In this document: positions 6,547 to 64,000 of the stretch, piece by piece
Layout: the number at the start of each line of letters is the position of its first letter
How positions within the stretch are numbered: the stretch's first letter is position 1
Assembly (NCBI GenBank): GCA_903829945.1
Contig: CAIKRV010000078.1
Coordinates: 1-64,000, forward strand
Direction of reading: 5' to 3'
DNA from: an uncultured bacterium
GTDB taxonomy: Bacteria > Bacteroidota > Bacteroidia > CAILMK01
DNA length: 64,000 nt
Translations under genes and position numbers: made by a program
Notes under the pieces: model-generated
Told to the model about the DNA's origin: nothing
The model's database searches: none
The model's input: only the letters and a program-made list of their open reading frames with translations

Positions 6547-9500
6547 ATGAGAAATTTACGGGCTAAAATGCGCTCCTGTATTCTATGGGTGTGCCTTATT
6601 ATTTCATTTTTATTTAATTCTTTTTACGCTAAAGGTAGTTTAAGTGGAACTTATACTATCGACGCTACTAAATCTGCTAGTTCAAGTAACTACAAAACAT
6701 TTAGTGCTGCTGTGAGCGATTTATTATCCGGCACCCGTGCAGACGGGGGTACAGCAAATGGATCCGGGGTGAGCGGAGCAGTAGTATTTAATGTAGCAAA
6801 TGGCTCTTATAACGAGCAAATTTCTTTTAATGCTATTAGTGGTGCTTCATCCACTAATAATATTACTTTTCAATCTGCCTCAGGTGATAGTTCTAAAGTA
6901 ATATTAAATTATGCCAGTGCCAGCTCAAGTACCAATAACTATGTGGTGCAACTTAGTGGAGCTTCTTGGATTAATTTTAAACAAATAACTATTTGGAGAA
7001 CAGGTTCTAATATTTGGGGAAATGTTATTACTGTTCAATCAAGTTCTAGTAATAATAGTTTTGTTGCTTGCCGATTATTCGGTTCAAAAACTAGTTCCAT
7101 GAATACCATAACTTCGGTAGTATATTCCAGTACAGATAATGATACTAATAATTTATTTCAAGGCAATGCAATGAAATATGGTAGTTATGCTTTTTATTGG
7201 AATGGTGTAAGTACGAGCAGCTATGAAAGATCAACACAAATTCTAGGCAACCTTATTGATAGTTGCTACTATTCTGCCATATACATGAACTATGAGGATA
7301 ATTTACACATTACCGGCAATACTATCACAAATGTTTATTATTCTTATGCAACCGGTGTTTATTTAAATTATTCAGTAAATGCATACCGAATTACAAAAAA
7401 TAAATTGGTTATGCCCAATGGGGGAAATTATGGATTTAGCATTAATAATTCATCCGGAACAAGTACTGCACGTGCACTCATTGCAAATAATATGATTTCA
7501 ATGGCAGGAAGTAATCAAATTATAGGAGGTTTATATTTTAATTGGTCATCCTACACTGATATTTATTATAATTCTATCAATCTTACCAATACAAATACAT
7601 CCTCCTATGGAATGTATTTATATTCTTTCAATGCTTATTTGACTAATAATTTAGTTAATAATTGCGTAACAAATTTTGGTGGCGGATTTGCCATGTATGT
7701 TTATTATTATGACGTAAACATGATGGATTATAATAATTGGTATGCTTCAGGTACTACCTTGGGTACATGGAATGGAAATAATTATAATAATTTAGTAAGT
7801 TGGCAAAGTGCCAGTGGAAAAGATGCATATGCAATAAGTGTTAATCCATACTATAATTCCTCCACCGATTTGCATTGCAGTAGTCCGCAAATCAATGGTG
7901 CTGCCTATTCGCTAGCCGCAGTTACTGATGATATAGATGGAGATAAGAGATCTACAACGCCGGATATAGGCGCAGATGAATTTAATTTACCTCCTTTAGA
8001 TGCAGGGGTTACCGGTCTTACCAATCCTAATGGAGGATATTGTGCAGGCACAAATAATATTAAAATTAACCTCACCAATTTTGGTAGTAATACATTGAGT
8101 TCTGCAAAAATTAATTGGTCTGTTAACGGTACTTTACAAACTGCTTATTCATGGACTGGAACTTTGTCTTCCGGAGGCATTGCCAATGTTACTATAGGTA
8201 CCTATTCTTTTGCTGCCAGTACGAGTTACAATATAAAGGTTTGGTCTTCCAATCCAAATGCCGGTATTGATGGTAATGCAGCCAATGATACCACCAATAT
8301 AGTTAATATGAAGCAAGGTTTAAGCGGTACTTATACAATTGGAGGTACTACTCCGGATTATGCTTCTTTTGGTGCAGCTGCTTTTGTTTTAAATAATTCA
8401 GGTATCTGTGGTGCAGTCACTTTCAATGTTCGTGACGGGTCTTACAATGAACAATTAATGTTTCTTCAAATTCCAAATGCTTCTGCAACTAATACAGTAA
8501 CATTTCAGAGCCAGAGTGGAGACAGTTCTAAGGTTATTTTATATTATGCATCAGGTGGTTCAATGAATAATAATTTTACGGTACAACTAAACGGTACAGA
8601 TTATTTGAATTTTAAACAGATCACTATCCAGAGGAATGGAAATATTTCTAATTTTTATGGTCGGGTTCTTGATTTTAGAGGAGGTGCTTGCAGTAATACT
8701 ATAAAAGGATGTCGAATACTAGGGTTGAAATCACCCTATTATTACTATAACCAAGATTTAATTTATTCCGGCCAGGATAATGATTCTGCAAACCAATTTA
8801 TCGGTAACTATTTAGTAAATGGTACTTATGGCTTTAACTGGAATGGTTCCAGTTCTTCTTCAAAAGAAAAAAATACAGTAGTAATGAATAATGTTATTGA
8901 TAGTACTTTAGGGTATGGCAATCAATTTTATTATCAAGATGGATTATTTATTAAAAATAATAAAATCAGAAATTTATCTACCGGTAGTACTTCATGGGCT
9001 GCCTATGGTTTGAACCTAAATTATTGTGATAATATAAAAGGAATCCTTAAAAATAATATTTATATCTTGGGAGCAAGCTATAATAGCTACGGTATTCAAA
9101 TTTCAAATTGCACCAATACCAGTACTTCTCCTGCACTTTTTGCAAATAATATGATAAGTGTGGATGGTGCCGCTCAGTATGGGACCTATGGTATTTATGA
9201 AAATGGTTCATCCTATCACAATTTTTATTTTAACAGTGTATTAATACCTAATGCTGCAAGTACTTCTTATGCATTTTATTTGAATGATTTTTCGGGATCT
9301 CAAAACATTGTAAATAATTGTTTTATTAATAAAGGAGGTGGACAAGCACTTTGGATTTATGGATATTATGTCAATACCATGAATTATAATGACATTTATG
9401 CTGGTACTGCTCAAATTGGTTATTGGAGCGGAACTACCTATTCCACTTTTGCAAATTGGAAAACCGGTACGAGTAAGGATGCCAATTCTATTTCAGTTGA

Positions 9501-12500
9501 TCCATACTTTGCATCAAATACCAATTTGCACGTTTCAAATGTTAGCTTAGATAAAAAAGCTACTCCAATTTCCGGAATTACCGATGATATAGATGGTGAC
9601 TTGCGCAATGCAACCAAACCTGATATAGGCGCCGATGAGTTTAAACCATTTAAAACAGATGCCGGAATTGTATCAGTTGATAGTCCTTTTGGAGGTTATT
9701 GTGTAGGTGCGCATAATGTAAAAGCTAGTATTATGAATTACGGTTCAGATACTTTGAAATCAGTGACTGTAAGTTGGAGTGTAAAAGGCACTGCTCAGAC
9801 GCCATATTCATGGACAGGCACTTTACTCCCGGGAGGGCAACAATCACTAAACTTAGGCTTATTTACCTTCAGCACAGGCAGTACTTATACTATCAAAGTT
9901 TGGACCACCAAGCCGAATGGAGGTCTGGATAGTAATGCATTAAATGATACGAATCAGCGATTTAATTTGCAACAAGGATTAAATGGCACCTATACTATTG
10001 GAGGCACTTCCCCCGATTATGTAAATTTTTCATTAGCAAGTACTGATTTAATGAATCGTGGAGTATGCGGAGCAGTTTTATTTAATGTTCGCGATGGATC
10101 ATACAATGAACAAGTTTATATTAAAACGATTCCTAATGCTTCGTCTACTTATACTGTCACTTTTCAATCACAAAGTTTAGATAGTTCTAAAGTGAATTTG
10201 AACTTTAATTCAGGTACCTGGCCTAATAATTATACCTTGCAATTAATTGGAGCAAGCTATATTACATTTAATAAATTAACAATTTCCAGAACAGGTACAA
10301 ATTTTTATGGAACAGTTGTAGAATTTAAAGGCGGTTCCTCCAATAATAGGTTTTTAAATTGTCAAATTTTTGGTGTCAGAAGTACTAATAATACCAATTA
10401 CAATAGTTTATTTTATTCTGCGAGTGATTTAGATTCCGGCAATTGGTTTAAAAATAATTATTTAAGAAATGGTAGTTATGGTTTTTATTATTACGGAATT
10501 TCTAGTTCCAGTTTGGAAATTGGTACAGTAATAGATCATAACTTAATTGACAGTTGCTACAATGCAGGAATTACCTTAGCATATCAAGATAATGTAAAAA
10601 TTACCAATAATATAGTTCGCAACTTAACATTTACAAATCCGGGTGGATCCAGTACTTACGGTTTACAAATGAATTATTGTAATAATGCACTTACCATTAC
10701 CGGGAACAAAATTTATTTGCCTTATGATGGCTATGGCATGTATATTTATTACTGTGTCGGTACCGCCAGTGCACAAGGTTATATAAATAATAATTTTGTA
10801 ACTGTAGGTGGAAATACATCGGCATCTTATTGTATATATTCTCAGTATTCCAATTACCATAATTATTCTTTCAATAATTTATTGATGACTAATAATTATC
10901 AACTGTCTTGTGCAGTAAATCATTACGGATACAGTATTATGTATATATGTAATTTTTCAAATAATAATATTGTCAATACCGGTGGTGGATTTGCAATGTA
11001 CGTGGGTAATAGCTCCGGTATAGGCACAATGTATAATAATAATTATTATGTTACCGGAAGGTATTTGGGTTATTGGAGTGGATCTAATGCCGGCACTTTA
11101 GCTGCATGGAAATCTATTTCAGGTCATGATACAGCTGCCATCAATGTAAATCCGTATTACTATAATTCTACTACAGATTTGCATGTTTTTAATCCATTAT
11201 TAAATGCCGCCGCAAAATATAATCCCGGAATAAAGTTGGATATAGATAAGCAAACAAGAAATACTTCAACGCCTGATATAGGAGCCGATGAATTTACACC
11301 TGCAAATAATGATGCAGGAATTAGCGCCTTGGTAAATCCTTATGGTAATTTCTGTCCGGCAAATACTAGTGTAGTGGCAACTTTAGTAAACTTTGGGACC
11401 AATACGCTCACCAGTGCAACCATTAATTGGATAGTAAATGGAGTAAGCCAGACATCCTATAGTTGGACAGGTTCTTTAAGTCCGGGTTCCTCCACTAACA
11501 TTACTATAGGGACTTATGCCTGGTCTAGTGCTACAGTTTATAATGTGAAAGTGTATCCAACTTCACCTAATGGTGCAATAGATGGAAATAATTTAAATGA
11601 TACTACCTATTATCAAAACTTATATTGTGGATTAAATGGAACTTATACCATTGGTGGTACATCACCTGATTATTCCACTTTTACGGCTGCTGCCAATGAT
11701 TTAAATTTAAAGGGCCTTTGCGGCAATGTTACCTTTAATGTACGAGATGGTTCTTACAATGAACAAATAGCATTAAATCAATATCCGAATGCTAATATTT
11801 ATTCAACCTTATTTCAATCTCAAAGCTTAGATAGTACTAAAGTAAATTTATTTTATCCTTCTAATAATACCTTTAATTATTTGAATTATACAGTAATGTT
11901 GAATGGTGCAGATAATATTACTTTCCAAAAAATGACTATATCACGTACGGGCACCAATATATATGGTCGTGTTATTCAAATTCAAAGAGGCGCCAATAGA
12001 AATAGATTTTACTCTAATATTATTCAGGGCGTAAGGGTACAAAATACTAATCCAATTGAATTGATGTATTCTTCCTCAGATAGAGATACCGGTTATATAA
12101 TCAGTAATAATGCATTTAGAAATGGTTCTTATGCTATCTATTTGTACGGTTTAAATAATAATATTACTGAACATGGACTAATTATCCAGAATAATATTTT
12201 TGATAGTAATTATTATGCCGGCATAAATGTTTATTATCAAGATTCAGTATTTATTAACGGGAATAAAATAAATAACATTTTAAGTAGTACCGGTTACGGT
12301 ATAAATGCTTATTATGTAAATTCAGTATTAGATATCAGTAAAAATAAAATATATATGCCAAATGGCGGTTATGGTATTTATATATATTTCTGGAACCAAA
12401 ATAATACTGCCCCGTATGGAAGAATAAATAATAACTTTATAGCAGTAGGAGGAAATAGCGGGGTAGGTTATGGATTATACACCTATTGGTCCTATAATTT

Positions 12501-15500
12501 AAATGTATACTTCAATAATATTAATGTATATAATACAGCTTCTCAAGCCGCAGCAGTTTATTATAATTATTCCTGGAATCTTAAATCACATAATAACAAC
12601 TTTGTAAACTCGGGTGGTGGAATGGCTTTGAATATGCCGAATTTTAGTACGTTCTCTACGAGTAATAATAATAATTATTTTACCAGTGGTAAGATTTTAG
12701 CATCTTTAAATGGGTCCTTTGCTTTTAGTTTGAGCGACTGGAAAACTTCTTCTTCGAAGGATACCAATGCCGTTTCTACTTATCCTTTTTATAAAAGCAA
12801 ATATGATTTGCATATAAATAATAAACTACTTGATAGTGCTGCCGTACCTATGGGAGGTATTACCACCGACATTGATGGGGATATTAGAAACACAACTAAA
12901 CCGGATATTGGTGCAGATGAAATAAAAATCGTAAATGTTACTGATATAGCAGTTACCAAAGTAGTTGTTCAACAATCCGGTGCATGCGAAGAAAGTCCGG
13001 TAAAAATTGGAGTAGTTATTTTAAATAATGGGACTAAAACACAAAGTGGTATTCCTGTTTATGCATCATTAAGCGGAGGTTATTCCGGATTACTTTCCGG
13101 AACATACAGCAAAGCACTTACTCCCGGTGCCTATGATACCTTTTATTTTTCTACTAAAATAGTTTCAACTACTACTAGTGTTGGAATCATTGGTTATTCT
13201 GCGCTGACCGGAGATATGGATCATACCAATGATTCTTTCCCTTTCAAGTTTACAATTACATATCGTACCCCATTGCCTTCGCCAAATGTGAACAATGCTA
13301 GTCGCTGTGCGTCCGGTTCTTTAAAATTAAGTTCGGGTCCGGCCAGAAGCGGATTACATGAATCTTGGTATGCTGCAGATACCGGTGGAATTGCCTTGGC
13401 TTATGGGGATACCTTCAATACGCCTATAATTTCTAAAACTACTAAGTATTATGTTCAAAGTAATGGTAAAGGAGCCGATACCTTAGGTACCACATTTGTA
13501 AATGGTAATAATAGTTCTCAAGGTGTAATGTTTGATATTATAGCTTCTAATCCTATTAGTATTGATAGCTTTGATATTGCTATGACCGGAAGTTCTGATA
13601 CGGTAGAAGTTTATTATAAATCAGGTAGCTATCAAGGCTATGAATTTTCACCAAGTTCTTGGAAATTATTAGGTAAAAAATATATTAGCGCTCCTAAAGG
13701 AGCCGGAAATCCTACTCATATTAAAGTAGCACCGACTTTCCCATTAACTTCAGGAAAAACTTATGGTTTTTATATTCGCCAACAAAGTTATTCCAACATT
13801 AGAAGTACTTATTTTAATGGAGGGAATTATTATTCTAATAATGATTTATCAATAAATACAGGTAAATTATTATTTATGTATTTTAATTCTGTGACCGGAG
13901 TTTACTATGCTTTTAATGGAAGAGTTTACTATACCGATTCAGGTTGTAGTAGTAAACGTTCACCGGTTACTGCAACCATAACCCATGGAATGAAAGGTTC
14001 GAAATGGATAAAGGGCTCTACCTATAATGGTGCATATGATTCGGGTACAGTTACTAATCCTGATATAGTTTGTTATGGAAATACGCTTCAATATGAAGTT
14101 ACTCCACCAACAGGTTATAATAATACAGGCTACGCTAAAAAATGGAGTTTTTCAAGTATTGTGATGTCTACCGTTAGCGGAAATATTTCTAAAGACACTT
14201 CATTCTCCTTACCTAATACATTTAATAATGGAATATTAACTTTTACTCCAGGGGCAACTACCTTAGCAGATAGTGTATATTTATTAAGTATAACTGTTTC
14301 GGATTCTTCCAAGAGTTGTGATTCAGTTTTGTATCGCTATATTTATGTAGCACCCAAAGCTAAAGCTGCATTTAATGTAGGCGCCAGTTGTTTAAATTCA
14401 ACAACTTTATTCTCGGATAGTACCAATACTAAAGCATTTGGCGCATTGACTTATACTTGGAATTTTGGAGATACTACCGGTTCCAGTTTAGCTAATCCTA
14501 CCCATATTTATACCCACAGTGGTTCTAAAACCGTTTGGATGAAAGTTTCATCGGGGACGGGCTGCGGAGTAGATTCTGTTTCCAAAACTATTACGATAGC
14601 AAATCCGCCAAAGGCTTGGTTTGGATCAACTTCGGTATGCTCCGGAGATAGTGTTTATTTTTCTGATTCCAGTACTATAAAAGCTCCGTCCACGGCTAAA
14701 TCTTATAAATGGTACTTTGGTGATGGGGCAACTTCAACATTAAAAAATCCTGCCCATTTATATGCTTCAGTTACATCTTATACAGTTAGTGAAGTGGTAA
14801 CCACTTCCTCCGGTTGTACTGATTCCGTTAGTAGAACAATTAAACCAAATGTAAAGGCGCCGGTGAGTCTTCAGGTTTCAAACTTTTGCTTAAAAGATTC
14901 TACTAAATTTATTGATACCGCAGCAACTACTCAAATTTCTTTATATGCATGGACCTTTGGTGATGGAAATACCGGCACCGGTCAAAATCCATATCATATT
15001 TATGCAACTTCCGGTACTTATAAAGTTAAATTAAAAGCCACCAGTAAAGGGGGATGTATTTCTACTGATTCTACTTCCATTACTATAAATCCTTTGCCAG
15101 CTGCAAATACAGGTGGTAATCAAACTATGTGTGCAAATGCAAGTGTCTTCTTAGGTACTACAGCAGTTAGTGGTGATACTTATAGTTGGACAAGTAAACC
15201 TGCAGGCTTTACCTCCTCATCGTCTAATCCTAATGTATCACCATCCGCTTCTACTAAATATATTTTAATAGAAACGAATACCAGTACGGGCTGTTTTAAA
15301 AAGGATTCTGCTATGATAACAGTAAATCCTTCACCAAGCCCCAATGCCGGAAACGATACCAATATTTGTCCGGGTACTACCCTAAGTATTGGTTCAGCAG
15401 CAATATTAGGACATACCTATAGTTGGGTAAGTAAACCTTTAGGGTTTACCTCTACTTCTGCCAATCCAAGTATTACTCCAACGGTATCGGCTACTTATTA

Positions 15501-18500
15501 TTTAACAGAAAAAATAACTTCAACTTCATGCAGTGCTTCTGATAGTATTGTGGTAAGTGTTAAATCTGTAATTAAAGGTTTGGTAGCAAAAGATACAAGT
15601 ATCTGTAAGGGTAAAACTATTTCTTTAGGAGTATCCAAAAAATCCGGAATTGCTTATACTTGGTCATCAAAACCATTGGGATATAGTTCCAATATTGCTA
15701 ACCCAAGTGTAACTCCTGTAAATAGTATTAGATATTATTTGAGTTATTATGATAGTTCATCAGGTTGCAGCGCCAAGGATTCTATAATGGTAAAAGTAAA
15801 TAGTCTTCCGGTACCGGTACCCGGCACTGCATCCAATGTTTGTGCGGGTTCAGCTGCAAGCATCGGAGGGCCTTCATCACTCGGTCATTCATATTCTTGG
15901 TCTAGTAATCCATTAGGGTATAGTTCTACATCATCTTCCAATACAGTTTATCCTAAGGTTAAAACTATATATTATATTACTGATAGCATAACTTCTACAG
16001 GATGTAGTGCAAAGGATTCCGTTATTATTTCTGTTAAAGCTTTACCAACGGCTACTGCAGGAAATGATACCGGATTATGTAAAGGAAGTGCAATTACTAT
16101 TGGTGCTGCTAAAATTAGCAAATTAAGTTATTCCTGGACTTCGTCGCCAATTGGTTACGCTTCTAATATTTCAAATCCAACGGTGAGTCCAAGTGTTACC
16201 ACAACTTATTATTTAGCTGTTAAGGATTCAATTACTACTTGTACTAATTATGATACCGTAATTGTTACCGTTAATCCTCTACCATCGGCCGTGGTTGGTT
16301 CTCCGAAATCCATTTGTTCCGGTCAAAGTTATACCATTGGTGCAGCTTCAGTTTCCGGCGATAACTATAGTTGGATTAGTAAACCTGCAGGATTTACTTC
16401 TAGTGCATCCTCCGTAGCTGTTAGTCCTACTACTACCACTAAATATATTTTAACAGAGACAGTATCCGCTACAGGTTGTTCTCAAAAGGATTCTGTCATA
16501 GTAACAGTAAATCCTCTACCATTGGCAAATGCCGGACCGGATGATTCAGTTTGTTTAGGTAATTCTGCTAAAATAGGAAGCACCTCAGTTATTGGAAATT
16601 CGTATTCTTGGACTAGTAATCCAACAGGTTATTCCTCTACAACATCTAGCGGTTCAGTAAAACCTACTATTACAACCTCCTATTATTTAAGTGTTAAAAA
16701 TACTGGAACCGGCTGTATGAATTATGATACAGTAAATATTAAAGTGAAAGCTTTACCAACAGTAAGTGCCGGTTCAGCACTAAGTACATGTATTACGACG
16801 GCAAGTGTTAAATTGACTGGTGCCTCTCCTAGTAAGGGATACTGGAAAGGTACAGGTGTAACTGATTCAATTAATGGAATATTTACGCCCTCCAAGTCAG
16901 GAAAAGGTTCATTTAGCTTAACTTATTTTTATACAGATAGCACTTCAGGCTGTAGCAATATGGCTTCCACTTCAATGTATGTTAGTGGATTGCCTACTGC
17001 ATTGTTTAAATCTGATAGTACTGCATGCCAAGGAGTTTCTTTTACTTTTACAAATAAATCAAGCGGAGATTCTTTGGCGAATTGGTGGTTTGGTGATGGA
17101 AATTCGTCAAAAGGATTGGCTACTACTACCGTTTCCAATAGCTACGTTTCCTCTGGAAAATATACCATTAAATTGAAAGTAACAAATGCTTATGGTTGTT
17201 CAGATTCTTTCTCAAGTTTAGTGCGCGTAGATACCAAATCAGTGCCTTCTTTTTCAATGAATAAAGATTCTATTTGTTCCGGGAATAAAGTTGTTTTTAC
17301 CAATAAAAGTACCGGAACTATTGATAAATATTTCTGGAATTTTGGAAATGGAGATACCAGTATTATTAAAAATCCAAGCGAAAGTTTTAGTGCTACCGGT
17401 GATTCAACTTTCTATGTAAAACTAAGTACGTACAATGGATGTGGTGCTGTTTCAAGCAAAGATTCTGTAATGGTTATGGGTAAACCATCTGCAGCTTTTG
17501 CTACCAATAAAACGAAATTATGTGCAGGGGACTCATTGATTGTACTGGACAAAAGTAAAGGAATAATTAGTACATGGAGTTGGAGTTTTGGCAATGGTTC
17601 AACTTCTAAATTAAAAAATCCGCTTGGCATGAGTTATTCTTCCAATACCATGGATAAATTTTATCCGGTGAAATTGACGGTTGGCAATACGTGCTTTACT
17701 GATACTGCATCTTTAAGTATTACGGTTTATGCGTCCAAAGTAAAATCAATTGTGAGCGCCAATATTTTAGTGGGCTATGCTCCATTAAAAGTGAATTTCC
17801 ATAATACCTCACCTGCCACCGGTAACTTAAAAATTAGCTATGATTATGGTGATGGAAGTAGCGGTCCGGATACTTTTCATACCTTTAAAACTGCTGGAGT
17901 TTTTGTTGTTAAACAAATTGCAACTAATGGTTGTGCTTTAGATACTGCTACTATAAGTATTGATGTACGATCTATTCCTATTGTGAAATGGTCAGGAACT
18001 AAAAGTATATGTAGTAATTTAATAGCTAACTTTAAGAATATTACCAATGATTCCTGCATTAGTGCTAATTGGGATTTTGGGGATGGTAATATTGCAAGCG
18101 GAGATTCCACAGCGCATCATTATTCCAAATCAGGTAAGTTTATTGTTAAATTATCTGTAGTTACAAAACTTGGTTATAAAGGGTCTTACAGTGATACTGT
18201 AACAGTTATGAAATTGCCTAATGCAAAAGTTTATCCCGATACTATTAAGGGCTGTAGCAATAAGGCATTGACTATAAGCAAAACTTCTACAAGTGATACT
18301 TATTTGTGGAGCTTTGGGGATGGTGATTCTGCTACCGGTAATTTTCCAAAGCATACTTATTTAACGCAAAGTACCTATGTATTGAATTTGATTGCCATCG
18401 GAAGTAACGGATGTGTAGATAGTGGTAGTGCAATAGTTGTCATTGGATCAGGGCCTGCAAGCAGCTTTACTATGAGCCAAACTGCATCGTGTAAATTGCC

Positions 18501-19485
18501 TATTACCGTAAGCTTTACAAATACCTCTACCAATGCTAATACTTATGCATGGAGTTTTGGTAACGGAAGGCGTTCTTATAATTTAAATGATATATCTACA
18601 TTTGATACTCCGGGGGTTTATACAGTAAGATTAATTTGTCGTAACCCTAATGGCTGTGCTGATACCAATATTCAGACTTTTACTGTTAATCCTATTCCTA
18701 AGTTAGACTTCCTTTCAAATAATAAATCAGTATGTCAAGGTGAACCGATCGAATTTTATAATAAATCAAATTTCCCTTCAGGTGCGGCTACTTATAAGTG
18801 GCTATTTGGAAATGGTGATTCTTCGATTCTTCAAGATAGTGTTTCTTATCTCTATCCAAAATTTGGAAGATTTGATGTATCCCTTATATCACAAACGAGT
18901 GCCGGTTGCATTGATACGTTTACTAAACATGCATATGTAACTGTTCACTATAAACCTCATGCGGGATTTACATATGCTTTGGCACTTGATCCTTTTTATT
19001 ACGGATATACTAATTTCCACACCAAGGACAGTATGGTTAAAAAATGCTTCTGGACCTTTGGTGACGGAACTAACTCTACTGATGTTAATCCAAGTCATAA
19101 ATATGGCCACAATGGATCATATATAGTATCACAAATTGTACAAACGCAGTTTGGTTGCGCAGATACCACTATCGATACCGTTATTGTAGATTTTGAGGCA
19201 AATATTGATGTTACTACTGCGCTTCATCGAGGATCTGATATTGAGCAAAATAAATATTTCTTTGCCCGAGGCATCGGTGTTAGAGAATACACAATTCGTG
19301 TATTTAATAGATGGGGCGGTTTGGTTTGGAGTTCGGAAGAATTAAAAGACCATGCACCAAGTGGCAAATGGGATGGAACATTTAATGGTGCAAATTGTCC
19401 GCCGGGTCTTTATATCTGGGATATAGAAGGACATTTTTGCAATGGAAAGGAATTTCAGGATCATGGGGTGATGGTTCTGTATTGA
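6547..19485 (+). CDS. Giant T9SS type B surface protein (4312 aa; beta-helix, Ig-like and PKD repeats)
   Basis: 4312 residues, about a fifth of the window. Signal peptide 1-29. Four long homologous units begin with GTYTI at residues 34, 594, 1147 and 1698. Each carries right-handed beta-helix-like strands rich in N, Y, S and G, a PDIGADE[FI] motif and (units 1-3) a CARDB-like DAG[IV] module. Then come three PKD domains (~2600-2848), seven ~79-aa Ig-like repeats (~2849-3400, each with a SYSW core and two Cys) and about nine further PKD-type domains (~3470-4215). The C-terminus (FNRWGGLVW, WDGTFNG, PPGLYIW) is the gliding-motility-associated type B T9SS domain. Such proteins are surface adhesins or fibres, often linked to gliding or attachment. 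The beta-helix part could be structural or polysaccharide-binding; no catalytic residues can be assigned by eye. Confidence 0.9.
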   Translation: MRNLRAKMRSCILWVCLIISFLFNSFYAKGSLSGTYTIDATKSASSSNYKTFSAAVSDLLSGTRADGGTANGSGVSGAVVFNVANGSYNEQISFNAISGASSTNNITFQSASGDSSKVILNYASASSSTNNYVVQLSGASWINFKQITIWRTGSNIWGNVITVQSSSSNNSFVACRLFGSKTSSMNTITSVVYSSTDNDTNNLFQGNAMKYGSYAFYWNGVSTSSYERSTQILGNLIDSCYYSAIYMNYEDNLHITGNTITNVYYSYATGVYLNYSVNAYRITKNKLVMPNGGNYGFSINNSSGTSTARALIANNMISMAGSNQIIGGLYFNWSSYTDIYYNSINLTNTNTSSYGMYLYSFNAYLTNNLVNNCVTNFGGGFAMYVYYYDVNMMDYNNWYASGTTLGTWNGNNYNNLVSWQSASGKDAYAISVNPYYNSSTDLHCSSPQINGAAYSLAAVTDDIDGDKRSTTPDIGADEFNLPPLDAGVTGLTNPNGGYCAGTNNIKINLTNFGSNTLSSAKINWSVNGTLQTAYSWTGTLSSGGIANVTIGTYSFAASTSYNIKVWSSNPNAGIDGNAANDTTNIVNMKQGLSGTYTIGGTTPDYASFGAAAFVLNNSGICGAVTFNVRDGSYNEQLMFLQIPNASATNTVTFQSQSGDSSKVILYYASGGSMNNNFTVQLNGTDYLNFKQITIQRNGNISNFYGRVLDFRGGACSNTIKGCRILGLKSPYYYYNQDLIYSGQDNDSANQFIGNYLVNGTYGFNWNGSSSSSKEKNTVVMNNVIDSTLGYGNQFYYQDGLFIKNNKIRNLSTGSTSWAAYGLNLNYCDNIKGILKNNIYILGASYNSYGIQISNCTNTSTSPALFANNMISVDGAAQYGTYGIYENGSSYHNFYFNSVLIPNAASTSYAFYLNDFSGSQNIVNNCFINKGGGQALWIYGYYVNTMNYNDIYAGTAQIGYWSGTTYSTFANWKTGTSKDANSISVDPYFASNTNLHVSNVSLDKKATPISGITDDIDGDLRNATKPDIGADEFKPFKTDAGIVSVDSPFGGYCVGAHNVKASIMNYGSDTLKSVTVSWSVKGTAQTPYSWTGTLLPGGQQSLNLGLFTFSTGSTYTIKVWTTKPNGGLDSNALNDTNQRFNLQQGLNGTYTIGGTSPDYVNFSLASTDLMNRGVCGAVLFNVRDGSYNEQVYIKTIPNASSTYTVTFQSQSLDSSKVNLNFNSGTWPNNYTLQLIGASYITFNKLTISRTGTNFYGTVVEFKGGSSNNRFLNCQIFGVRSTNNTNYNSLFYSASDLDSGNWFKNNYLRNGSYGFYYYGISSSSLEIGTVIDHNLIDSCYNAGITLAYQDNVKITNNIVRNLTFTNPGGSSTYGLQMNYCNNALTITGNKIYLPYDGYGMYIYYCVGTASAQGYINNNFVTVGGNTSASYCIYSQYSNYHNYSFNNLLMTNNYQLSCAVNHYGYSIMYICNFSNNNIVNTGGGFAMYVGNSSGIGTMYNNNYYVTGRYLGYWSGSNAGTLAAWKSISGHDTAAINVNPYYYNSTTDLHVFNPLLNAAAKYNPGIKLDIDKQTRNTSTPDIGADEFTPANNDAGISALVNPYGNFCPANTSVVATLVNFGTNTLTSATINWIVNGVSQTSYSWTGSLSPGSSTNITIGTYAWSSATVYNVKVYPTSPNGAIDGNNLNDTTYYQNLYCGLNGTYTIGGTSPDYSTFTAAANDLNLKGLCGNVTFNVRDGSYNEQIALNQYPNANIYSTLFQSQSLDSTKVNLFYPSNNTFNYLNYTVMLNGADNITFQKMTISRTGTNIYGRVIQIQRGANRNRFYSNIIQGVRVQNTNPIELMYSSSDRDTGYIISNNAFRNGSYAIYLYGLNNNITEHGLIIQNNIFDSNYYAGINVYYQDSVFINGNKINNILSSTGYGINAYYVNSVLDISKNKIYMPNGGYGIYIYFWNQNNTAPYGRINNNFIAVGGNSGVGYGLYTYWSYNLNVYFNNINVYNTASQAAAVYYNYSWNLKSHNNNFVNSGGGMALNMPNFSTFSTSNNNNYFTSGKILASLNGSFAFSLSDWKTSSSKDTNAVSTYPFYKSKYDLHINNKLLDSAAVPMGGITTDIDGDIRNTTKPDIGADEIKIVNVTDIAVTKVVVQQSGACEESPVKIGVVILNNGTKTQSGIPVYASLSGGYSGLLSGTYSKALTPGAYDTFYFSTKIVSTTTSVGIIGYSALTGDMDHTNDSFPFKFTITYRTPLPSPNVNNASRCASGSLKLSSGPARSGLHESWYAADTGGIALAYGDTFNTPIISKTTKYYVQSNGKGADTLGTTFVNGNNSSQGVMFDIIASNPISIDSFDIAMTGSSDTVEVYYKSGSYQGYEFSPSSWKLLGKKYISAPKGAGNPTHIKVAPTFPLTSGKTYGFYIRQQSYSNIRSTYFNGGNYYSNNDLSINTGKLLFMYFNSVTGVYYAFNGRVYYTDSGCSSKRSPVTATITHGMKGSKWIKGSTYNGAYDSGTVTNPDIVCYGNTLQYEVTPPTGYNNTGYAKKWSFSSIVMSTVSGNISKDTSFSLPNTFNNGILTFTPGATTLADSVYLLSITVSDSSKSCDSVLYRYIYVAPKAKAAFNVGASCLNSTTLFSDSTNTKAFGALTYTWNFGDTTGSSLANPTHIYTHSGSKTVWMKVSSGTGCGVDSVSKTITIANPPKAWFGSTSVCSGDSVYFSDSSTIKAPSTAKSYKWYFGDGATSTLKNPAHLYASVTSYTVSEVVTTSSGCTDSVSRTIKPNVKAPVSLQVSNFCLKDSTKFIDTAATTQISLYAWTFGDGNTGTGQNPYHIYATSGTYKVKLKATSKGGCISTDSTSITINPLPAANTGGNQTMCANASVFLGTTAVSGDTYSWTSKPAGFTSSSSNPNVSPSASTKYILIETNTSTGCFKKDSAMITVNPSPSPNAGNDTNICPGTTLSIGSAAILGHTYSWVSKPLGFTSTSANPSITPTVSATYYLTEKITSTSCSASDSIVVSVKSVIKGLVAKDTSICKGKTISLGVSKKSGIAYTWSSKPLGYSSNIANPSVTPVNSIRYYLSYYDSSSGCSAKDSIMVKVNSLPVPVPGTASNVCAGSAASIGGPSSLGHSYSWSSNPLGYSSTSSSNTVYPKVKTIYYITDSITSTGCSAKDSVIISVKALPTATAGNDTGLCKGSAITIGAAKISKLSYSWTSSPIGYASNISNPTVSPSVTTTYYLAVKDSITTCTNYDTVIVTVNPLPSAVVGSPKSICSGQSYTIGAASVSGDNYSWISKPAGFTSSASSVAVSPTTTTKYILTETVSATGCSQKDSVIVTVNPLPLANAGPDDSVCLGNSAKIGSTSVIGNSYSWTSNPTGYSSTTSSGSVKPTITTSYYLSVKNTGTGCMNYDTVNIKVKALPTVSAGSALSTCITTASVKLTGASPSKGYWKGTGVTDSINGIFTPSKSGKGSFSLTYFYTDSTSGCSNMASTSMYVSGLPTALFKSDSTACQGVSFTFTNKSSGDSLANWWFGDGNSSKGLATTTVSNSYVSSGKYTIKLKVTNAYGCSDSFSSLVRVDTKSVPSFSMNKDSICSGNKVVFTNKSTGTIDKYFWNFGNGDTSIIKNPSESFSATGDSTFYVKLSTYNGCGAVSSKDSVMVMGKPSAAFATNKTKLCAGDSLIVLDKSKGIISTWSWSFGNGSTSKLKNPLGMSYSSNTMDKFYPVKLTVGNTCFTDTASLSITVYASKVKSIVSANILVGYAPLKVNFHNTSPATGNLKISYDYGDGSSGPDTFHTFKTAGVFVVKQIATNGCALDTATISIDVRSIPIVKWSGTKSICSNLIANFKNITNDSCISANWDFGDGNIASGDSTAHHYSKSGKFIVKLSVVTKLGYKGSYSDTVTVMKLPNAKVYPDTIKGCSNKALTISKTSTSDTYLWSFGDGDSATGNFPKHTYLTQSTYVLNLIAIGSNGCVDSGSAIVVIGSGPASSFTMSQTASCKLPITVSFTNTSTNANTYAWSFGNGRRSYNLNDISTFDTPGVYTVRLICRNPNGCADTNIQTFTVNPIPKLDFLSNNKSVCQGEPIEFYNKSNFPSGAATYKWLFGNGDSSILQDSVSYLYPKFGRFDVSLISQTSAGCIDTFTKHAYVTVHYKPHAGFTYALALDPFYYGYTNFHTKDSMVKKCFWTFGDGTNSTDVNPSHKYGHNGSYIVSQIVQTQFGCADTTIDTVIVDFEANIDVTTALHRGSDIEQNKYFFARGIGVREYTIRVFNRWGGLVWSSEELKDHAPSGKWDGTFNGANCPPGLYIWDIEGHFCNGKEFQDHGVMVLY
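6646..13290 (+). repeat. Four long intragenic repeats of 1650-1680 bp
   Basis: Unit starts (GTYTI codons) at 6646, 8326, 9985 and 11638 give periods of 1680, 1659 and 1653 bp, all multiples of three. Units 2-4 open with GTYTIGG(T)xPDY and contain FNVRDGSYNEQ. They are similar at protein level but clearly diverged in DNA, so they are old duplications rather than recent ones. Confidence 0.85.
15091..16760 (+). repeat. Seven tandem ~237-bp Ig-like repeats within the giant gene
   Basis: Each encodes about 79 residues: a Pro-rich linker (PLP.A.AG), a D..[IVL]C.G motif, S[YH][ST]W, a G[FY][ST]S segment, P..TT.Y.L and a C...D[ST] end. The copies are diverged in DNA. Confidence 0.8.
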
Positions 19486-60675: not shown

Positions 60676-60725
60676 TTAACAATTACATAACATATGAGTA
60701 AAGTTAGCTTAACAATTCCGTAACA
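60676..60725 (+). promoter_or_regulatory. Pho-box-like array upstream of the porin-pstS operon
   Basis: Five half-sites in exact 11-bp register: TTAACA (60676), ATAACA (60687), GTAAAG (60698), TTAACA (60709) and GTAACA (60720). The outer pairs form two copies of TTAACAATTnnnTAACA 33 bp apart. A near -7 box CAACTTTG (60724-60731) follows directly. Direct repeats at 11-bp spacing are the binding geometry of PhoB/PhoP response regulators. Confidence 0.6.
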
Positions 60726-60782
60726 ACTTTGCACCATTAATAAACAGTGTAAAACTTGTTAAATACAATTAATTTAATATTT

Positions 60783-62030
60783 ATGAAAAAAAGGTTATTG
60801 ACACTTGCATTTGCCACATTTACGTTGGCTGCAATGCTACCGGGCGCGGTGAACGCACAAACAACCACTACAGACGCTCCTGCTACCGATGAGTTCAAGC
60901 CATCCGGTAAACTTTGGGGTTATGCATTTGGTGATTATTCTTATAAAGTACATGCTGACTCTACAGGTACTGCTGGTAAGAGAACTAGTCCGGGAAACCA
61001 ATATTTAGGTCAAGCGAAAGACTTTGGTTCATTTGCTTTCAGACGTATATATTTGGGGTATGACTATAATTTTGCTCCAACCGTTAAAACTCAATTATTG
61101 TTGGCTCATGAAAGTGATGCAACATTAGCTGCTGATGGAAATCGTACTTTTTATATCAAGTTAGCTAATATTCGTTGGACATTTGCAAAAAATACTGATT
61201 TAGTAGTTGGTTCTCAAGAAACACCGGGCTTCCCTATGTTGGAAGAAAAAATTTGGGGATATAGATCTATTGAAAAAACCATTACGGATTTCAGAAAGAT
61301 TATTACCTCAACAGATTTAGGTGCTTCTATCCAAGGTAAATTTAATGACAAAGGAGATTATGGATATAATTTCTTATTCTCCAATGGTTCTGTTGCTGCT
61401 CCTGAAAATGATCCTTACAAAAAATTATCTGCTGATGTTTATGGTAAATTCATGGATCAAAAAATCGTAATTGATCTTTATGGAGATTATAATTTGAGCA
61501 AACGTACTCCTACTGAAGTAAGTAAAGCTACTGGTAAGTTATTTGCTGCTTATACAACTCCGGGATTAACAGTTGGTGTTACTGTATTTGAACAAGTACA
61601 AGAACATGCTGTAACTTATACTGAAAGTGGTTCCACAACCAAATTAAACAAAAATGCTGTAGTATTTGGATACTCTGCTTTTGTAACCGGTGCAATAATT
61701 AAAGATAAGTTGAATTTCTTTGCCCGTTATGATAATTTCAATCCTGATAATTCTTATAACAGCAGCCGTACTTATTCTGCGGGTAGCTCTTATTATACTA
61801 CTACTACCGGTGGTATTTTAGCACCGGTTCTTGAAAATTTCATCACTTTAGGTGTTGATTGGATGCCGGCTAAAAATGTTCATTTCATGCCAAATATTTG
61901 GATTGATACTTATTCTAATCCGGCTGCAAATGCAATTAAGTTGAACAAATCTGATAATGATATTGAAGCTCGTATGACTTTCTACTATATTTTCGGTAAG
62001 GAAAATAACAATATACCGAACAAATTGTAA
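60783..62030 (+). CDS. Porin, probably phosphate-related
   Basis: 415 residues from the ATG at 60783; the frame opens at 60756 but the signal peptide starts at MKKRLLTLAFATF (cleaved after VNAQ). The mature protein has the strand pattern of phosphate-selective OprO/OprP-like barrels (SFAFRRIYLGYDYNF, VKTQLLLAHESD, FYIKLANIRWTFAKNTDLVVGSQETPGF) and a final strand DIEARMTFYYIFG. It sits 29 nt before pstS, downstream of the Pho-like array. A phosphate role is inferred mainly from this context. Confidence 0.82.
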   Translation: MKKRLLTLAFATFTLAAMLPGAVNAQTTTTDAPATDEFKPSGKLWGYAFGDYSYKVHADSTGTAGKRTSPGNQYLGQAKDFGSFAFRRIYLGYDYNFAPTVKTQLLLAHESDATLAADGNRTFYIKLANIRWTFAKNTDLVVGSQETPGFPMLEEKIWGYRSIEKTITDFRKIITSTDLGASIQGKFNDKGDYGYNFLFSNGSVAAPENDPYKKLSADVYGKFMDQKIVIDLYGDYNLSKRTPTEVSKATGKLFAAYTTPGLTVGVTVFEQVQEHAVTYTESGSTTKLNKNAVVFGYSAFVTGAIIKDKLNFFARYDNFNPDNSYNSSRTYSAGSSYYTTTTGGILAPVLENFITLGVDWMPAKNVHFMPNIWIDTYSNPAANAIKLNKSDNDIEARMTFYYIFGKENNNIPNKL

Positions 62031-62059: not shown

Positions 62060-62881
62060 ATGAAATCTTTAAAATTAATCATTGCTCTTTTCCTTTCAGG
62101 AATGGTGAGCTTTGGTACTCAGGGACAGCTTAAAATAAAGGGAAGTGATACTGTATTGCCTTTATCCCAAAAAGAAGCTGAAAAATATATGGCTTCTCAC
62201 AAAGGAGCAAATATTTCTGTATCCGGTGGAGGAAGCGGTGTGGGCATTACTGCTCTTATTGATAACAACACTGATATTGCAATGTCTTCTCGTTCTATGA
62301 AAATGGAAGAGAAAATGAAATTGAATGATACTAAAAGAGCATTCAAGGAAGTAATGATTGCAAAGGATGCTTTGGCTGTAATTGTAAATAAAAGCAACCC
62401 TGTAAGCAAACTAACTCGTCAACAATTAGAAGATATTTTCACAGGAAAAATAACTAATTGGAAAGAAGTAGGAGGCCCTGATTTAAAGATTATCGTTTAT
62501 ACACGTGAATCTAGCTCCGGTACCTATGAATTTTTCAAAGAACACGTAATGATGAAAAAGAATTACGCTGCTGATGCTTTGGCAAAACCTGCTACCGGTG
62601 ATATTGTTCAAAGTGTAAGCCAAACCAAAGGAGCTATTGGTTATGTAGGCCTAGCCTATTTATCTAAAACGGTAAATTCTATTGCCGTTAGCTTTGATGG
62701 CAAAACATTTGAAAAACCAAGTTTCAAAGGTGCTAAAACCGGTACATATCCGGTATCAAGACCATTATTTTATTATTACTTAGTTTCTAAGGAAAAAGAG
62801 GTTAAGCCTTTCTTAGATTATATCCTATCAAAAGAAGGTCAAAAGATCGTTGATGAAGTAGGATATGTATCAATAAAATAA
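62060..62881 (+). CDS. pstS: Phosphate ABC transporter substrate-binding protein
   Basis: 273 residues. Signal peptide about 1-22. Family motifs: IKGSDTVLPLSQKEAEKYM, the glycine-rich SVSGGGSGVGI, DIAMSSRSM and the phosphate-contact segment TRESSSGTYEFF, then GAIGYVGLAYL. It captures phosphate in the periplasm. It forms an operon with the porin upstream and is ended by a strong palindromic terminator. No pstC, pstA or pstB is visible here; the transporter genes may lie elsewhere. Confidence 0.92.
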   Translation: MKSLKLIIALFLSGMVSFGTQGQLKIKGSDTVLPLSQKEAEKYMASHKGANISVSGGGSGVGITALIDNNTDIAMSSRSMKMEEKMKLNDTKRAFKEVMIAKDALAVIVNKSNPVSKLTRQQLEDIFTGKITNWKEVGGPDLKIIVYTRESSSGTYEFFKEHVMMKKNYAADALAKPATGDIVQSVSQTKGAIGYVGLAYLSKTVNSIAVSFDGKTFEKPSFKGAKTGTYPVSRPLFYYYLVSKEKEVKPFLDYILSKEGQKIVDEVGYVSIK

Positions 62882-62939
62882 TTGGGCAATCATTTTAAGA
62901 TGGCCACAATTTAGAATGTTTAGTTAATAATGGCAGAGG

Positions 62940-62969
62940 CGCCCGGAATTAATTCCGGGCGTTTTTTTT
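62940..62969 (+). terminator. Intrinsic terminator of the porin-pstS operon
   Basis: A perfect 22-nt palindrome (62940-62950 with 62951-62961, CGCCCGG core) followed by eight T. Confidence 0.9.
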
Positions 62970-63039
62970 AATTATTTTCAACATTAATACTAATTTTTAT
63001 TTTCGCAACACATTGTTAAACAATAATATAAAAAAGTGC

Positions 63040-63111
63040 TTAACAATAACTTAATATTGAGCTAACATTAGCTTAATAATTGGGAAATCATAGCGTAACA
63101 ATTACTTAATA
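63040..63111 (+). promoter_or_regulatory. Pho-box-like array upstream of the DUF47-pit operon
   Basis: Half-sites at 63040 TTAACA, 63051 TTAATA, 63062 CTAACA, 63073 TTAATA, 63095 GTAACA and 63106 TTAATA, all on one 11-bp grid with one empty slot at 63084. Read as pairs, these are three copies of nTAACA-N5-TTAATA. The -7 box lies 17 bp downstream. Confidence 0.65.
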
Positions 63112-63128
63112 CTGAAATTGGTTTTTAT

Positions 63129-63136
63129 TAACTTTG
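63129..63136 (+). promoter_or_regulatory. Candidate -7 box TAACTTTG of the DUF47-pit operon
   Basis: Exact TAnnTTTG match. It covers an in-frame TTG (63134), so translation must start downstream, at the ATG at 63155. A dyad GCTCAAATTTTTGAGC (63136-63151) overlaps its end and lies in the leader. Confidence 0.6.
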
Positions 63137-63154
63137 CTCAAATTTTTGAGCAAA

Positions 63155-63802
63155 ATGAATATTAATAAGATTTTACAAGTCCTCGTTCCAAAGGATCACA
63201 AGTTTATTCCAATGTTGTCTGCAGCAACAGCTAATCTGCAATTAATGTCTAAAAAACTTATTGAAACTTTAAGTGAAGGTGATTGGGATAAGCGTAGAGC
63301 ATTAATTAATGAAATAGAGCAACTTGAAAAGAAAGGAGATGAATTAACCCACAAAATTTTTCATTCTTTAAGTGCCAGTTTTATTACTCCATTTGATAGA
63401 GAAGATATTCATTTATTAGCATCAGAAATAGATAATGTAGCAGATTACATTCATGGTACTGCTAAGAGATTATATATTTACAAAATTCAAAATATTCATG
63501 ATTCCATGCTAAAAATGGCTGATTTAATTCAAGCTGCGGTTGAAGAATTAAATAAAGCTATTTTATCTATTAAGGACATGAATGACCCTCAACAAGTAAG
63601 AGAATCCTGCACGCGAATACATGCTATTGAAACCCATGCTGATGATATTTATGATATGGCTATATCCCAACTTTTTGAAAAGGAAACAAATGCCATTGAG
63701 GTAATTAAAGTACGTGAAGTATGGTTGGTATTAGAAAAGGCAGTAGACAAATGTGAGGATGCCGCAGATGTATTGATGTCCATACTTGTTAAAAACAGTT
63801 AA
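63155..63802 (+). CDS. DUF47 family (PhoU-like) phosphate transport accessory protein
   Basis: 215 residues, all-helical. It shows the DUF47 pattern: FIPMLSAATANLQLMSKKL, EIEQLEKKGDELTHKIFHSLSASFITPFDREDIHLLASEIDNVADYIHG and IHAIETHADDIYDMAI. Such PhoU-like proteins pair with PiT transporters and modulate uptake. The start is the ATG at 63155, because the promoter box covers the earlier in-frame TTG. It is 8 nt upstream of the PiT gene and downstream of the second Pho-like array. Confidence 0.9.
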   Translation: MNINKILQVLVPKDHKFIPMLSAATANLQLMSKKLIETLSEGDWDKRRALINEIEQLEKKGDELTHKIFHSLSASFITPFDREDIHLLASEIDNVADYIHGTAKRLYIYKIQNIHDSMLKMADLIQAAVEELNKAILSIKDMNDPQQVRESCTRIHAIETHADDIYDMAISQLFEKETNAIEVIKVREVWLVLEKAVDKCEDAADVLMSILVKNS

Positions 63803-63810
63803 TTATTAGT

Positions 63811-64000
63811 ATGTTAATTTTAGTTTTTATCACCATATTGTCAGCATTAATATTCGATTTTGTAAATGGAATGAATGATGCTGCAAATTCAATTGCTACA
63901 ATTGTATCCACACGTATTTTATCACCTAGATGGGCAGTAGTTTGGGCAGCAACCTTTAATTTTATTGCCATTTTTATTTTCGGCACACCGGTGGCAAAAA
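63811..64000 (+). CDS. pit: PiT-family inorganic phosphate transporter, 5' part only
   Basis: Only the first 63 codons are inside the window; the frame is open at the right edge. The N-terminus carries the PiT signature FDFVNGMNDAANSIATIVSTRILSPRWAVVWAA in the first helices, with the conserved Asn-Asp-Ala-Ala-Asn core. Low-affinity phosphate/cation symport across the inner membrane. It is co-transcribed with the DUF47 gene. Confidence 0.9.
   Translation, partial: MLILVFITILSALIFDFVNGMNDAANSIATIVSTRILSPRWAVVWAATFNFIAIFIFGTPVAK

Follow-up and report, generated by a model that had tools for sequence, protein, structure and literature searches.

A tandem array of TAAYA half-sites on an 11-bp grid precedes the operon DUF47-pit-pstS-pstC-pstA-pstB-phoU in the genome of an uncultured Bacteroidota bacterium. 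The window, i.e., the whole stretch of DNA that was analyzed, is 64,000 nucleotides long and ends within pit; the remainder of the operon lies beyond it (L019). Judging from sequence and genomic setting, we are highly confident that the array is a Pho box of a Bacteroidota type, at which phosphorylated PhoB would activate DUF47-pit-pstSCAB-phoU, and that a sister array would serve porin-pstS likewise. The array has the direct repeats with an 11-bp period, in at least two units, by which a Pho box is recognized, and in this genome and its relatives such arrays lie upstream of phosphate-acquisition genes. We infer that PhoB binds the array, that binding activates transcription, and that phosphate exerts the control.

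The initial annotation described six half-sites: TTAACA (63040), TTAATA (63051), CTAACA (63062), TTAATA (63073), GTAACA (63095), and TTAATA (63106). All six are present, and their spacings, re-read from the letters, are 11, 11, 11, 22, and 11, every one a multiple of 11; a degenerate slot at 63084–63089 (slot from 63085) also falls on the grid. The three copies of nTAACA-N5-TTAATA occur as written, and an exact TAnnTTTG follows 17 bp beyond the end of the array at 63111. The best seven-slot 11-bp grid holds six TAAYA, a number that was not approached in 20,000 dinucleotide-preserving shuffles of the 273-bp spacer (62882–63154, 72.5% AT, both strands), which gave three at most (0/20,000 exceeded three). 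At other steps of 8–14 bp the real spacer holds no more than three half-sites, and in the whole 64-kb window no run at other steps between 7 and 15 rises above three. Spacers of 72%–74% AT and one long, near-exact 11-mer array elsewhere (L033, see below) would suit an origin by chance, or a decaying minisatellite that plays no part in regulation, but the shuffles argue against both, as do the bases between half-sites, which vary from unit to unit within the array. The positions of the features are collected in Table 1.

Table 1. Features of the Array-Bearing Region and the Regulator Gene (Window Coordinates unless a Contig Is Named)
Feature	Position	Strand	Remarks
Sister array, before porin-pstS	60676–60725	+	TTAACA 60676, ATAACA 60687, TTAACA 60709, GTAACA 60720
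Probable -7 box CAACTTTG, porin-pstS promoter	60724–60731	+	TTTG at 60728, 18 bp after TAACA at 60710
Outer-membrane porin-like gene	60783–62030	+	weak OprO/P similarity; PF07396, 17.8 bits, below cut-off of 20.9
pstS, phosphate-binding protein	62060–62881	+	TIGR02136, 253 bits, above cut-off
Intrinsic terminator	62935–62966	+	between pstS of porin-pstS and the reported array
Reported array	63040–63111	+	TAAYA half-sites at 63041, 63052, 63063, 63074, 63096, 63107
-7 box TAACTTTG (TAnnTTTG)	63129–63136	+	TTTG starts 26 bp after last half-site TAATA; -7 consensus from PMC6847099
DUF47/PhoU_div gene	63155–63802	+	PF01865, 95 bits; first gene of DUF47-pit-pstS-pstC-pstA-pstB-phoU
pit phosphate transporter, gene start	63811–64000, runs out of window	+	PF01384
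PhoB-like regulator	G000:C93:8402-9082		receiver and OmpR/PhoB winged-helix domain; beside a PhoR-like kinase

The array precedes DUF47-pit as first described, and the pst-phoU genes follow in the same direction. Scores above the curated NCBIfam cut-offs were obtained for both PstS-family genes, PstC, PstA, PstB, and PhoU, and the porin-like gene is related to porins that adjoin pstS at other loci. A scan for sigma-70 promoters gave matches only at the number expected by chance. Between the last base of the -7 box and the position just before the DUF47 start codon lies a perfect 7-bp inverted repeat, GCTCAAA-tt-TTTGAGC (63136–63151), which is broken by one base in a congener. The window also holds a single ORF of 4312 aa (6547–19485, + strand).

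The genome encodes only one OmpR/PhoB-type DNA-binding domain (PF00486, Trans_reg_C). The two best families of the protein that carries it are PhoB (TIGR02154, 225.2 bits) and Bacteroides PhoB (NF053854, 223.8 bits); these scores are below the equivalog cut-offs of 296.2 and 270 bits, respectively, and we therefore call the protein PhoB-like. Its DNA-binding domain matches the structure of E. coli PhoB (1gxp, 8e-20). The next gene encodes a histidine kinase whose best-scoring families are PnpS and PhoR, likewise below cut-off. PhoB/PhoP-type regulators had been said to bind direct repeats of this spacing; domains of the PhoB type line up head to tail on direct repeats whose period is 11 nt (PMC4415409). 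A different regulator, from the OmpR or some other family, that happens to control phosphate genes is very unlikely to be what binds the repeats: the protein falls short of the PhoB equivalog cut-offs, but no second domain of this type is available in the genome, the best families are PhoB, and in other genomes arrays lie directly before phoB-phoR or adjoin phoB (L079, L046).

Further arrays were found in the same genome. The pattern TAACA-N6-TAAYA-N5..30-TAAYA has nine matches in the whole 2.9 Mb; on the grid are only those of the 60.7-kb and 63.0-kb arrays and one inside an 800-aa ORF. The sister array at 60.7 kb, absent from the initial annotation, has spacings of 11, 22, and 11, and its half-site count was reached in 2 of 20,000 shuffles. 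The TTTG of its promoter stands in the register common among relatives. A third array (G000:C40:6249) consists of three on-grid half-sites (TAATA, TAACA, TAACA) with TTTG at +29 in an exact -7 box; downstream are genes for a lamin-tail-domain (LTD) lipoprotein, an SdiA-regulated/phytase-like protein, and a Porin_O_P protein, the only one in the genome above cut-off (G000:C40, L290 739-3259). From its sequence, this is a third candidate Pho promoter. One on-grid pair 87 bp before the start of the phoB-like gene, with TTTG at +40 (18+22) and an imperfect -7 box, is only suggestive of a Pho site. The third pstS-like gene of the genome (G000:C21) has no array. Scanning this genome with two half-sites, as had been proposed, recovered the sister array and the Porin_O_P operon, but a TAACA pair at spacing 11 was matched eight times, no more often than the backward control (eight), so the pair alone is no signal. 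A consensus pair, TTAACAATTCCTTAACA, is found before a nuclease-A-inhibitor-like gene (NuiA, PF07924; L269, G000:C34:21427-21442, minus strand), with no TTTG in register.

Comparison with a congener (G001) indicates which positions of the reported array are constrained. The DUF47 proteins are 86% identical and the half-site grid is kept; the TAAYA columns are identical at 28 of 30 positions, the other columns at 25 of 42. On this alignment, the half-sites are conserved while the spacers drift, contrary to what a chance or minisatellite origin would predict. The slots at 63051 (TTAATA) and 63062 (CTAACA) read GTAACA and TTAACA in the congener. Since TAACA stands there in some TAATA slots, a TAACA+TAATA dimer is ruled out as a fixed unit. 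The half-site is nTAACA at every slot, and TTAATA is a weaker version of it. Of the original proposal of a Bacteroidota Pho box with three dimer sites, the Pho box is upheld by the phosphate genes, the spacing, and the conservation, but the dimer unit is not. In both congeners TTTG starts 26 bp after the last half-site, outside the register of 18 or 29 bp.

Relatives of DUF47 from Bacteroidota (Pedobacter, Sphingobacterium, Mucilaginibacter, Chitinophaga, and others) were chosen by protein alone, and 200 bp upstream of each gene were analyzed (n = 79). TAACA-TAACA pairs occurred 49 times at spacing 11, 6 times at 22, and 7 times at 33, and not once at spacings of 8–10 or 12–15; shuffled sequences gave a mean of 0.12 pairs per spacing. 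After removal of near-identical regions, 37 pairs at spacing 11 were left in 60 regions. The 16 kb of upstream sequence holds 49 such pairs, whereas the rest of these loci, 1.0 Mb read on both strands, holds 16. The random scatter of arrays in AT-rich spacers that the initial annotation had named as grounds for refutation was thus not seen. With spacing and register common to protein-selected loci across the phylum, and with the shuffles, the spacing counts, and the difference in density between upstream and remaining sequence all opposed to it, an origin of the reported array by chance or as a minisatellite is refuted and hardly conceivable.

The same loci define a register. An on-grid TAAYA pair is present at 53 of them, and at 37 of these TTTG begins exactly 18 bp after the last half-site. 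The array consensus in Bacteroidota is CTTAACATTAACTTAACATTgnnnnnnTAnnTTTG, and a profile of 36 distinct sequences, which were selected for the 18-bp geometry, reads CTTAACATTAACTTAACATTg, six weak positions, and TAnnTTTG. The TTTG of the -7 box lies 18 or 29 bp from the last half-site in relatives, 18 bp from it at porin-pstS, 29 bp at the Porin_O_P array, and 26 bp at the reported array. In the relatives, PhoB on a half-site whose end is 9 bp upstream of the -7 box would cover the -33 region. As the last half-site lies 18 bp (or 18+11) before TTTG in most of them, PhoB at the -33 position could touch the sigma factor, which makes activation through such a contact the likeliest mode. The reported promoter, at 26 bp, has either a different geometry, or another true start site, or control other than classical activation. 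With its -7 box out of the usual register, the reported array might be a PhoB site that represses or fine-tunes its own promoter. The 26-bp distance is kept in the congener, and low-affinity Pit does not in every case belong to the starvation genes, both of which would fit; but the high-affinity pst genes come next on the same strand, the DUF47 genes of many relatives have an array in the activating register, and the array lies upstream of the -7 box and does not overlap it. We consider repression or fine-tuning quite unlikely, and continue to favor an activating Pho box.

Inverted arrays before DUF47 in Chitinophaga were considered as a reversed mode of action, an idea that was rejected: in the species checked, they are canonical for a divergent gene. 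This gene encodes a metallophosphoesterase of the PlcP type and has an array with TTTG at +18 on the strand opposite to DUF47. At the Chitinophaga loci L194, L197, L199, L220, L229, L233, and L237, the TTTG before DUF47 is 46–47 bp from the array. One array may serve both the PlcP-type gene and DUF47.

When 393 genomes were scanned, blind to genes, for TAACA triplets with 11-bp spacing, the matches listed numbered 91, versus 22 for the backward pattern. Only four array loci were inside ORFs of 150 aa or more. About 21 of the 60 nearest downstream proteins have TonB-receptor N-terminal domains and 7 match PstS-type PBP_like_2; the remainder include porins, PstC-type permeases, phosphonate-binding proteins, Na/Pi and PHO4 transporters, and one PhoB. 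In a second scan, two half-sites were fixed and the distance to TAnnTTTG was left free. Among the matches listed, 109 distinct ones show peaks in the distance to TTTG at 18, 29, and 30 bp, with roughly two cases at most other values. The 18/29 class consists mostly of DUF47, TonB-receptor, and PHO4-family genes. The 30-bp class largely precedes other gene families and may be a different signal, perhaps of a different regulator. At L116, L152, L158, L161, L162, L163, and L164, TAACA pairs, mostly with TTTG at 30 bp, lie before a family of ∼450–485-aa proteins, of which those scanned gave no Pfam match; MauE-type or LTD proteins are encoded behind further pairs of this class. L033 (G013:C1, about 1717414-1717500) has 12 half-site slots in near-identical 11-mers (TAACAACCCAA) before a 464-aa ORF, and is either an overgrown array or a minisatellite. 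PhoX loci of a Flavobacterium-like genus, used as a positive control, lend no support, since their short flanks had no array with a -7 box (only two strong matches).

The data are consistent with the following model. When phosphate is scarce, phosphorylated PhoB would bind the tandem nTAACA half-sites, one per 11-bp helical turn, and recruit RNA polymerase to the -7 box TAnnTTTG, so that DUF47-pit-pstSCAB-phoU is switched on; the sister array would play the same role for porin-pstS. The E. coli Pho box consists of two 11-nt direct repeat units with the conserved part CTGTCAT (PMC4415409). Like the array described here, it has 11-bp direct repeats and AT-rich spacers, and it is found in front of pst and further phosphate genes, a short way upstream of the promoter core. 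The two differ in the half-site, which is CTTAACAT here, and in the promoter, which has a TAnnTTTG -7 box of the sigma-ABfr type here and a -10 TATAAT in E. coli. E. coli PhoB contacts the sigma factor, sigma-70. In Bacillus subtilis, the PhoP box is made of TT(A/T/C)A(C/T)A repeats ∼11 bp apart; half-site and period are nearly the same and the same, respectively, and there are often more than two copies, but phylum, regulator clade, and promoter type are different. We know of no fixed 18-bp register for the PhoP box.

Within Bacteroidota, low phosphate induces TonB receptors, PlcP, LTD-domain nucleases, and phoB in Flavobacterium johnsoniae, a regulon whose gene families overlap those behind the arrays; it was defined by expression, and no operator sequence was found in the text (PMC8115612). 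The -33 element of this species is hardly visible (PMC6847099). Expression of pstC in low phosphate requires PhoB in Bacteroides fragilis, where a Pho box was invoked with neither consensus nor site given (PMC3547664). The accessible part of a study of Riemerella anatipestifer PhoP reports an in vitro DAP-seq motif for this OmpR-family regulator of the same phylum, described there as ArcA-like and not tied to phosphate genes (PMC9603813). The statement that Bacteroidota have no widely used Pho-box consensus agrees with the open-licence literature, in which none was found; an earlier description elsewhere is possible. Pho boxes as such are known; the variant described here is specific to the phylum in its consensus and in its register to an unusual promoter.

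Bacteroidota are major scavengers of phosphorus in soil, sea, and gut, and their PhoB regulon has so far been studied by expression. We think it reasonably probable that CTTAACATTAACTTAACATT-N7-TAnnTTTG represents a PhoB promoter architecture used throughout the phylum, in which the array contacts the unusual primary sigma factor, sigma-ABfr, and takes the place of a -33 element that is weak or absent. The consensus and register allow a direct test of how an activator works together with a sigma factor that has an ill-defined -33 element. Together with the fixed distance to the -7 box, the consensus permits regulon prediction and the naming of unknown low-phosphate genes. If the architecture is indeed phylum-wide, the Pho regulon of thousands of genomes would be readable from this signature.
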